Of a DNA stretch of 36,753 bases, positions 12,054 through 19,882 are shown in pieces. The stretch comes from Candidatus Campbelliibacteriota bacterium. Lineage in GTDB: Bacteria; Patescibacteriota; Minisyncoccia; Phycocordibacterales; GCA-2747955. Numbering within the stretch: position 1 is the first letter of the stretch; each line of letters begins with the position of its first letter. Below the pieces are notes generated by a model. It was given only the letters and a program-made list of their open reading frames with translations. It was not told the DNA's origin and did not search any database. The stretch lies in assembly GCA_947311625.1 (NCBI GenBank), contig CAMZKW010000014.1:1-36753 (forward strand). Reading direction: 5' to 3'. The translations under genes and the position numbers were made by a program.

Positions 12054-12097
12054 AAAATTACGTTATAAATTGCTATAGCAATTTATAACGTAATTTT
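12054..12097. repeat. Perfect 44-nt palindrome after rplU
   Basis: Positions 12054-12075 are exactly complementary to 12076-12097, centred on GCTA/TAGC. It can act as the rplU terminator only weakly (few T residues follow). It could be a cruciform, a binding site or a remnant of a mobile element end. Confidence 0.6.
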
Positions 12098-12148: not shown

Positions 12149-12177
12149 TTGACAAAAAGAATAGATTATGATACAAT
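12149..12177 (+). promoter_or_regulatory. Strong promoter of the 12.2-12.7 kb unit
   Basis: TTGACA, a 17-bp spacer and TACAAT: the best consensus -35/-10 pair in the window apart from the rRNA promoter. Predicted start near 12184, giving a leader of about 284 nt before the 12468 gene. A purine-rich GGAGGGGG lies just upstream. Confidence 0.7.
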
Positions 12178-12183
12178 GTATTT

Positions 12184-12467
12184 AATCAAACAAAAGGAAA
12201 AAACCTTTTAATTTAAATTAAAAAAGGATGACTGCTACGCAGTCATCCTTTTTTAATTTAAATTAAAAAAGGATGACTGCTACGCAGTCATCCACATAAA
12301 ACTTAAAAGTTCAAATCCAAGTAGAATTTTGAAAAAAAACTATTTTTTTCAAAATTCTGCTTGGATTCGACTCAGGCAGTACTTTAGTGAAAATGTCGAA
12401 TATTTTGACTAAAGTACAAAAGAGCCTGTAAGGCTGGAAAATTTTAAATTAAATTAAAGGATATAAA
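12184..12467 (+). ncRNA. Candidate structured RNA or leader with four hairpins
   Basis: This region follows a strong promoter and is dominated by pairing. (a) 12206-12235 pairs perfectly with 12239-12268 (30 bp, TAC loop), and the GC part is followed by T6, so it can act as a terminator. (b) 12271-12280 pairs with 12284-12293, an exact repeat of the first hairpin's core. (c) 12314-12338 pairs with 12343-12367 (25 bp, one G-U). (d) CAGGC (12373) and GTACTTTAGT (12379) pair with ACTAAAGTAC (12408) and GCCTG (12424). ATTCGAC (12365) could alternatively pair with GTCGAAT (12395). It may be an attenuated leader of the small gene at 12468 or an RNA in its own right. No known family was recognised. 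Confidence 0.5.
12206..12293. repeat. Two 43-nt direct repeats, each with a hairpin
   Basis: 12206-12248 and 12251-12293 are identical. Each holds GGATGACTGC-TAC-GCAGTCATCC. The second copy lacks the T-run that follows the first. Identity suggests a recent duplication or a functional need for alternative pairing. Confidence 0.8.
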
Positions 12468-12707
12468 ATGGCAAAAATTTGGAGTAGTTGGGATGGAAAA
12501 TCCCAAATAAAAATAGACATCAGCGGATTGGATACTGATGTAAAAAAAATTATAGATGATGCAATTAAGGAGGCATACAGAAATGAATGTCATCCGGTTG
12601 CATCATCGGACAGGTTGCTTAATCAGTATAAAGGTGCAGGTTTCACTATTGTGGAACACAAGCCTGCACCTTGGGGGTATTTAATAATATCCCCAATCTT
12701 GAAATAA
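12468..12707 (+). CDS. Orphan 79-aa protein, unknown function
   Basis: The product starts MAKIWSSWDGKSQIKIDIS and ends APWGYLIISPILK. It is soluble, mixed charge, with no membrane segment or recognised motif; the middle (VKKIIDDAIKEAYRNE) should be a helix. Three things set it apart from its neighbours: all three Trp codons are TGG while nearby genes mostly use TGA, the GC content and codon choice are higher (CCG, TCG, AGC, GAC), and AAAGGA lies 7 bases before the ATG, a rare weak Shine-Dalgarno-like site. It has its own strong promoter, long structured leader and terminator. This suggests transfer from a standard-code donor. That is inference. Confidence 0.6.
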   Translation: MAKIWSSWDGKSQIKIDISGLDTDVKKIIDDAIKEAYRNECHPVASSDRLLNQYKGAGFTIVEHKPAPWGYLIISPILK

Positions 12708-12740
12708 CCAAACAGTTTTGTTTGGTTATTATTTTATATT
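12703..12740 (+). terminator. Terminator of the orphan gene
   Basis: AATAACCAAAC / GTTTGGTTATT with a 6-nt loop, overlapping the stop codon and followed by a T-rich tract. Confidence 0.75.
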
Positions 12741-13017: not shown

Positions 13018-16000
13018 ATGAGTGTAGGACAATATAAACAAAAAACATTCAATAGATATAAAAAACCAGGAATGGAAATTCCAAACTTGGTAAAACATCA
13101 ATTGGATTCATACGATAGGTTTTTAGAAAAAACCATTGTTGGAGTATTCAAAGAAATTAATCCAATTTCTGATTATTCTGATAAAAAATTTGATTTAGTA
13201 TTTAAATCTCTAAAAATTGAAGAAACAGAGCATGATGATTTTTCCGCAAGAAGATTAAGGATATCTTTGGAAAAACCATTGAAAGCTGTATATGAATTAG
13301 TAAATAAAACAACGGGGGAAACAAAAAAACAGGAAATATTTATGTTTCATGTTCCCGTTTTAACAAAACATGGAACATTTGTAATTAATGGAGTTGAGAG
13401 AGTGGTGGTGCCACAACTTTCCAGATCAGCTGGTATATTTTTCACTGTTGATGAATCAAAAAAGGAAAGATATTTTGGAGCAAAAATTATTCCAGGAAGA
13501 GGTTCTTGAGTTGAAATTCAATCTGAGGCTAAAGACTTAATTTATGTTAAAGTTGATAGAAAAAGAAAACTTCCAATTACTTCTTTTTTGAGAATATTTG
13601 CTAATGGAATGGCAGACGAAAAAATACTATCTTTGTTTTCAGAAGAGGCACAAAAACATATCAAAACTACTTTTGAAAAAGATACAGCTTTAACACTTGA
13701 TGAATCATATGGAGAATTATATAAAAGACTAAGGGATGGTGAAACAGTTCCAGCTGATTTAGCAAAAGACCATATTGATGGTGTTTTTGCAAAGGAGAGA
13801 TATGATATTTCAGAAATTGGTAGAATCAGATTTAATAAAAGATTTGGTGAAAAAGAAATAGTAAAATATTCTGAAAAAGACCAACTAATTACTCTTTCTG
13901 ATTTAGTTCATATTATTGAAAAAATAGTTGAATTAAATCAAGATAAGGAAAATTCTCAACCCGATGATATTGACCATTTAGGTTCAAGAAGGTTAAGATT
14001 TTTTGATGAACAAATTGAAGCCAGGTTGAGACAAGGACTTTTGCAGATGGCTAGAAATATTAGAGATAAGATGTCGATTGCTGATTCTTTAACAACTGAT
14101 CCAGGATTTTTTATAAATCCTAGACCTATACAGGCAAAAATAAAAGAGTTTTTCAATACAAACCCTTTATCACAATTTATTGACCAAGACAATGTTTTGT
14201 ATGAATTAGAATCTAACAGAACTGTTTCTGCTCTAGGTCCCGGTGGGCTTGTGAGAGAAAGAGCTGGATTTCAAGTTAGAGATATTCACCCATCACACTA
14301 TGGTAGATTGTGTCCCATCCATACTCCTGAAGGTCAAAATATTGGATTGATAATGAGGCTTTCAACACATGCCATTGTAAATAAATATGGAGTTATTGAA
14401 ACACCTTACTATAAAGTAAAAAATGGTAAAGTTTCAAAAAATATTGAATATCTTGATGCATATCAAGAAGAAGCTGTTAACATAGCATCTTCTAAACAAA
14501 AATTAAATGATAAAAGAGAAATAGTTGATGAATCTGTAGAGGTTAGATACCAAGGAGACCCTTTGGTTATTCCTAAAGATAAAGTGGATTATATGGATGT
14601 ATCTGCTTATCAAATGTTTTCTGTAGCCACATCAATGATTCCTTTTGTTAATCACGATGAAGCCAACAGGGCACTGATGGGTTCAAATATGCAGAAGCAA
14701 GCTGTTCCTTGTATAAAACCAGATGCTCCCATAGTAGCAACTGGAATAGAAGCTGATGCAGCAAAATACACAGGTAGACTTTTATATGCACCAGAAGAGG
14801 GTGAAATAACTTATGTTTCAGGTTCTAGAATTGAGATGAAAGGAAAATCTGGTAAAAAAAGAGTTTATAATTTAGTAAATCATGAAAAAACAAATACTTT
14901 TGTTACATTTCATCAACAACCTAGAGTTAGTATAGGAGATAAAGTGAAAGAAGGTGATTTATTAGCTGATACTTCTTCAACTGACCATGGACAAATTGCT
15001 GTGGGTCAAAATATTTTTGTGGCATTTATGTCTTTCTACGGAGCAAATTATGAGGATGCTATTATTGTTTCAGAAAGAATTGCTAAAGAACATAAATTTA
15101 CAAATATTCACATTAAAGAATACATTGTAGATGTTAGAGAAACTAAATTGGGACCAGAACAAACTACTCATGATATTCCAAATGTTGGAGAAGATAAAAT
15201 TTCAATGTTGGATGAGGAAGGAATTATTAGAGTTGGTTCTGAGGTTGAAAAAGGAGATATTTTGGTAGGAAAAGTTACACCTAAAGGAGAGTCACAATTA
15301 ACTCCCGAAGAAAGATTACTAAGATCAATTTTTGGTGAAAAAGCCAAGGATGTAAAAGATTCTTCAAAGAAATTAAAGGCTGGTGAAAAAGGTAGAGTTG
15401 TTGGTATAAAGATTTTTGATAGAGCCAAAGGGGAAATTAATGAAAATGGAATTATAAAAAGAATTTTTATTCAAGTTGCTGAAATGAGAAATATTAAGGT
15501 TGGTGATAAACTTTCTGGAAGGCATGGAAATAAAGGTGTTGTTTCTATGATTTTACCAGAGGAGGATATGCCCTATACAGAAGATGGAAAACCAGTTGAT
15601 GTTATTTTATCACCTCTAGGTGTTCCTTCTAGAATGAACTTGGGTCAAATTCTTGAAGTTCACTTGGGGTTGGCCGCTAATACTTTAAAATATCAAGCAG
15701 TTGTTCCTCCTTTTGCCGGATCAAGTGATGAAGAAATTAAAGAAGAATTGGTAAAAGCAGGATTTCCTGCATCTGGTAAAGTACCTCTAATTGATGGGTA
15801 TACCGGTGAAAAATTTGCTAGAGATATAACTATAGGTTATATGTATATTCTTAAACTTCACCATATGGTTGAAGATAAAATGCATGTTAGGTCTGTAGGT
15901 CCTTACTCTTTGATTAACCAACAACCATTGGGTGGAAAAGCCAATGGTGGAGGACAAAGATTTGGGGAGATGGAGGTTTGAGCATTGCTTGGACATGGAG

Positions 16001-16203
16001 TAGCATACACTTTAAGAGAAGTTTTGACTGTTAAATCAGATGATATTATTGGTAGAACTGCCATGTATGATTCTATTATTAAGGGTAAGAATTTTATTCT
16101 TCCGAACACACCAGAGTCATTTAATGTAATGATGAATACTTTGAGAGGGTTGTCTCTAGATATTACATTAGGTTCTGATAGCGAAGATAATCAAAATAAA
16201 TAA
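13018..16203 (+). CDS. rpoB: DNA-directed RNA polymerase subunit beta
   Basis: A 1061-aa beta subunit, shorter than E. coli RpoB but normal for reduced genomes. Two TGA codons interrupt it: 13507 in GRGS-W-VEI and 15979 in GEMEV-W-ALLGHG; both are Trp in homologues (RGSWLDFEFD and GEMEVWAL in E. coli), which is direct evidence for UGA=Trp. Core motifs include LSRSAGIFF, DIHPSHYGRLCPIHTPEGQN near residue 422, SFYGANYEDAI, GDKLSGRHGNKGVVS near 829-843 and the C-terminal LGGKANGGGQRFGEMEV. rplJ and rplL, the usual upstream genes, are absent; a long leader with a possible attenuator replaces them. rpoC starts 1 bp after its stop. Confidence 0.98.
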
Positions 16204-16204
16204 T

Positions 16205-19882
<3,678 letters not shown>

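Follow-up and report, generated by a model that had tools for sequence, protein, structure and literature searches.

Hairpins at the 5' ends of bacterial mRNAs guard them from 5'-dependent decay (PMC3997798), and stabilising 5' leaders, such as those of ompA and papA, are already known. Highly structured mRNA fragments of mycobacteria degrade slowly and need RNase J (PMC9312406). Here we compare with such systems a transcription unit, U1, found in a window (the whole stretch of DNA analysed) of 36,753 nt from a Candidatus Campbelliibacteriota bacterium. Like the ompA and papA mRNAs, U1 is monocistronic and has stable 5' hairpins and an accessible Shine-Dalgarno (SD) sequence (PMC3997798); unlike them, its structure continues through the coding sequence (CDS), and orphan genes with no relation to one another share its leader. 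U1 also resembles phage morons and other single-gene acquired cassettes, having its own promoter and terminator, atypical composition with foreign codon usage, and a position between resident genes. It does not lie in a prophage, however, being flanked by rplU and rpoB and having no phage, plasmid or IMG/VR match, and its leader architecture is common to several units. A third likeness is to the genome-scale ordered structure of RNA viruses, as the CDSs of the units are folded far beyond their synonymous shuffles. In contrast to RNA viruses, U1 is DNA-encoded in a bacterium and carries a canonical promoter and terminator, and no polymerase gene was recognised: searches of Pfam, PDB and PADLOC found no polymerase of an RNA-virus-like replicon in the U1 protein (P0001) or in the 589-aa U3 protein (for the latter, Pfam on the first 396 residues).

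The sequence-only reading had described a consensus promoter, four stems (30, 10, 25 and 15 bp), a 79-codon gene with only TGG for Trp and richer codons, and a terminator of its own, and each of these elements was recovered (Table 1). The promoter (TTGACA-17-TACAAT) is the top-scoring promoter-like match of the whole window; the stems measured 30, 10, 25 and about 16 bp, with a further small 5-bp hairpin; and P0001 has three TGG and no TGA codons, with a GC3 of 0.33 relative to a background of 0.16 +/- 0.06 (ORFs of at least 100 aa). The description of U1 as an isolated unit was right in that it is monocistronic and has rplU and rpoB as its neighbours, but the same genome contains relatives of it. 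In G001, a congener checked for an empty site of U1, rplU does not adjoin rpoB.

Table 1. Positions of U1 features in the window, and sites of the second promoter family in genome G000
Feature	Position	Strand	Remarks
Palindrome	12054-12097		44 bp, perfect, loopless; downstream of rplU; similar palindrome upstream of U2
U1 promoter	12149..12177	+	TTGACA-17-TGATACAAT; 11/12 match; TG before -10 (extended -10)
U1 leader, ~290 nt	12178..12467	+	transcription start inferred ~7 nt past -10
Tandem duplication, 45 nt	12206-12250/12251-12295		in U1 leader
P1a, 30-bp perfect (100%) hairpin	12206..12268	+	arms 12206-12235/12239-12268; GC core 12226-12248, then T6
P1b, second copy of 10-bp GC core of P1a	12271..12293	-	intrinsic terminator on minus strand, as in U2 and U3
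P2, 25-bp AT-rich hairpin	12311..12370	+	family-specific arms AGAATTTTG/CAAAATTCT
P3, 16-bp imperfect hairpin	12379..12417	+
3' arm closing leader beside SD	12442..12458	+	able to pair with 12207-12223 (or 12252-12268)
SD-like AAAGGA	12456..12461	+	mean unpaired probability ~0.7 (predicted)
U1 gene P0001, 79-aa orphan	12468..12707	+	CDS hyper-folded
CDS stems of U1	12555-12564/12598-12607; 12631-12643/12660-12672; 12671-12679/12688-12696
U1 intrinsic terminator	12703..12730	+	overlaps stop codon of P0001
Second-family sites (L112-L123)	C1:4092, 44774, 56188; C2:89037; C5:1434, 31331
Second-family sites (L112-L123), continued	C6:4210, 18452, 44901; C8:11698, 15784, 18494

The leader of U1 has a minimum free energy (MFE) of -114 kcal/mol, compared with -44.5 +/- 4.2 for dinucleotide shuffles (z -16). 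It was the most folded, after GC correction, of 2172 tiles of 290 nt from about 315 kb of its own genome, a draft of 22 contigs about half of which was sampled for folding; the leaders of the units, which span 180-310 nt, took ranks 1, 2 and 4 among these tiles. The predicted energy of P1a is -36 kcal/mol. Alternative pairing by the repeated arms, which had been suggested from the letters, was confirmed: the fold in which 12207-12223 pairs with 12442-12458 (-113.6 kcal/mol) lies within 0.6 kcal/mol of the MFE (-114.2), and one of the two folds pairs the region immediately upstream of the SD. In the predicted ensemble the first 10 nt are mostly paired (unpaired 0.22) and the SD is mostly open (0.70); U1 is thereby predicted to have the paired 5' end or adjoining stable hairpin of 5'-stabilised mRNAs.

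Folding was not limited to the leader. The MFE of the whole U1 transcript is -216 kcal/mol, relative to -106 for shuffles (z -18.7), and that of the CDS is -81.4, relative to -52.8 +/- 5.3 when protein and codon usage were held fixed; none of 1000 such synonymous shuffles reached the native value (z -5.4). The CDSs of U2, U3 and U4 gave z values of -3.9, -9.9 and -10.0, while ordinary genes mostly gave 0 to -2.6 (rplW, -4.4). Among 309 ORFs of the sampled genome (mean d -1.2, SD 2.1), the U1 gene had a d of -12. Apart from several doubtful ORFs, the other top-folded ORFs were U2, U3 and a lipoprotein-like gene (L124:6137-7507, 456 aa, z -9) that has a peptidoglycan-binding-like stretch and no family promoter; the highly expressed rplW, rpsS and rpoC were the next most folded genes of annotated type. 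Sliding windows placed the start of the folding excess near the transcript start in both U1 and U2. The excess stopped at the terminator in U1 and ran past the ORF in U3, and folding was not strong at the end of the U1 leader and in the first codons. The genome of U4 holds several additional hyper-folded orphan genes, and no such gene was present in roughly 100 kb from a different genus of the family; the other hyper-folded genes counted in G004 include some doubtful ORFs, with tRNA or repeat overlaps.

A DNA search of its own genome revealed that U1 belongs to a family, which the sequence-only reading had missed, as it had the hyper-folded CDS. U2 (L017:10311) and U3 (L016:8343) are diverged copies of the promoter and the start of the leader, and U4 (L018:9889) lies in a genome of the same genus. 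With a profile of the four promoters, U1-U4 scored 39-48 bits, and the next match in 614 kb scored 18.7 bits. Matches to the promoter pattern in 397 genomes of the order numbered three in the unit's own genome, one in that of U4 and one in each of eight others, where the leaders gave z values of 0 to -3.5, as against -9 to -17. A leader hairpin with the arms CAGRATTTTG/CAAAATYCTG is common to U1, U2 and U4, and the same arms, with a longer loop, can be seen by eye in U3. When ten genomes were searched for AGRATTTTG/AAAATYCTG with loops of 10-40 nt, the pattern was found only in U1, U2, U4 and one terminator, and the control gave no match. Further, U1, U2 and U3 each have a GC-rich hairpin soon after the start, which differs in sequence while its pairing is fully kept, and a U-run on the minus strand makes it an intrinsic terminator for opposing transcription. 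Promoter and hairpin are shared by U1-U4; P0001 has no homologue in the genomes searched.

Several candidate connections were discarded. The common strand of the units, considered as a sign of a special insertion mechanism, is that of most genes on their contigs. The same promoter occurs in 56 viral contigs, none of whose leaders folds like those of U1-U3, and the single match to the P2 arms in viral contigs, inside an iteron-like array, was taken as coincidence. Many IMG/VR contigs (among L044-L099) carry a conserved leader (ATTCTCTATAGCAAATAACTATGTTTACTAAGTAGCCTGACCCCAC...) directly after CTTGACAAATA-TATGATACAAT; it is unrelated to the units, and may be a structured viral RNA not yet described. 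For several cassettes (L103:4700, L017:10037, L127:15438 and L104:7602), a tRNA or tmRNA gene is found within some 250 nt, a possible hint of integration sites.

The proteins encoded by U1-U4 (79, 117, 589 and 349 aa, respectively) are unrelated, and those of U2 and U4 each have an apparent signal peptide. The homology search proposed for the 79-aa protein returned no credible homologue in IMG/VR, GTDB contigs, the 397 genomes of the order, phages, Pfam, PHROGs, NCBIfam, PADLOC or PDB; a Paenibacillus match was rejected, as it spans 14 residues. Likewise, the U3 protein has no homologue in the genomes searched and no match in Pfam (first 396 residues), PDB or PADLOC, and has one weak PHROG match (phrog_1196, E 5e-4). 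For the U2 and U4 proteins, the comparison covered family libraries only and gave no convincing match. AlphaFold confidence for P0001 (pLDDT 52) and the U3 protein (pLDDT 33) was too low for a fold search, and a DNA search of phages and plasmids gave no match. The GC3 of the unit genes is 0.31-0.38, relative to 0.16 for genome ORFs, and those that contain Trp use TGG only (U1, 3/3; U3, 13/13), against a background of 596 TGA to 155 TGG (21% TGG). Because TGG-only usage fits a recent arrival, the earlier suggestion of acquisition from a standard-code source is plausible, with TGG-using relatives as a further potential source.

The genome itself reads UGA as Trp, since TGA stands at conserved Trp positions in rpoB (13018-16203), rpoC (16205-19882) and a phosphoketolase-like gene, and a tRNA whose anticodon is UCA (L017:2944-3015) is encoded near tRNA-Trp(CCA). 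The rpoB stretch of G001, of the same genus, also contains a TGA but lacks TGG; only TGG occurs in the corresponding stretches of G002, G003 and three genomes from other genera of the family. This distribution suggests that the code changed inside the genus. In a 2026 review (PMC13293708), the only UGA recoding listed for Minisyncoccota is to Gly, in Gracilibacteria. The genome also contains 12 promoters of a second family, TTGACA(A)nCGATTATAAT, which is absent from nine relatives (Table 1). They mostly precede single orphan genes; L123 carries a ketol-acid reductoisomerase with 62-65% identity to proteobacterial-type IlvC, and its leader is near-identical up to the ATG to that of L120, which serves an unrelated gene.

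U1-U4 form a family that combines a shared promoter and hairpin, unrelated cargo and excess folding of both leader and CDS. We tentatively favour, at somewhat short of an even chance, the interpretation that they are self-contained cassettes for orphan or foreign genes, strongly transcribed into mRNAs that have been shaped by base pairing for longevity; a role in mRNA longevity is favoured because of the shielding that 5' hairpins give bacterial mRNAs against 5'-dependent decay. In every unit, a sigma-70 promoter close to consensus precedes a leader built from stable hairpins and a single orphan gene of atypical, TGG-using codon usage; U1 adds its own terminator. Pairing along the whole transcript may resist both attack at the 5' end and single-strand-specific cleavage, so that a few acquired or orphan proteins could be made strongly from a long-lived mRNA whose ribosome-binding site is mostly open. 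In U1-U3, the terminator on the minus strand, just within the unit, may keep opposing transcripts out of the promoter.

The main rival to this interpretation is a DNA-level palindrome-forming process, because the excess pairing hardly differs between the strands: it is almost as large on the antisense strand and when G-U pairs are forbidden. Under such a process, template switching or single-stranded DNA stages would turn near-palindromes into perfect palindromes where DNA is young, mobile or under weak constraint; the hairpins would be a by-product of the origin or entry of the sequence, with a functionless RNA fold. The perfect palindromes outside the U1 transcript and upstream of U2, the freshly duplicated tandem copies of P1 and the orphan status of the unit genes are all consistent with this origin. 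However, the strong folding excess of U1 lies between transcript start and terminator; within CDSs of up to 589 codons the reading frames stay open despite the excess; and most second-family cassettes, which are also foreign, are far less folded (IlvC, z -1.7). On balance, we consider a by-product of this kind unlikely.

Regulation by the leader was also weighed. The two near-equal folds could act as a cis-regulatory switch (attenuator, riboswitch or translational switch) by exposing or covering the region before the SD, which the alternative helix abuts, and the first stem does have the terminator form claimed for it, P1a being followed by T6. That sense-strand U-run occurs only in U1, though; U2 and U3 carry the U-run on the minus strand only, and an attenuator conserved in the family is therefore not supported, nor is the attenuated gene of the sequence-only reading as a shared function. 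In addition, the predicted closing helix of the U2 leader ends far upstream of the SD, and the 30-bp local hairpin would be the first to form as the leader is transcribed. No Rfam 15 family, riboswitches included, matched U1 at gathering score (the sole match of the window is 16S rRNA), a permissive scan gave only sub-threshold matches, mostly to microRNA-type hairpins, and no common ligand is suggested, because the cargo genes are unrelated. A switch is accordingly a distinctly poor prospect. Poorer by far is control by an antisense RNA ending at the minus-strand terminator of P1, as in plasmid copy control or type I toxin-antitoxin systems: the terminator does occupy the same position in U1-U3, but in U1 the stretch from P1 to the gene contains no strong promoter on the minus strand, and the proteins, which have no match in PADLOC, are not toxins of the small hydrophobic kind.

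The cassette interpretation, with mRNAs shaped for longevity, can be extended, more doubtfully, to a class of bacterial protein-coding genes, found in two or more species of a single genus, that are under selection for base pairing along the full length of their mRNAs and that spread or arise as promoter-leader cassettes in which the orphan cargo is interchangeable; the family on which it draws numbers four units with no homologous CDSs. If this is true, a CDS that beats every synonymous shuffle, joined to a shared promoter-leader and unrelated cargo, would represent a new expression strategy in ultra-small bacteria, and the units would be a natural system in which to gauge the extent to which mRNA structure sets mRNA lifetime and translation. 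The hyper-folded units also mark candidate recently acquired genes in a lineage whose genetic code seems to have changed within a genus.
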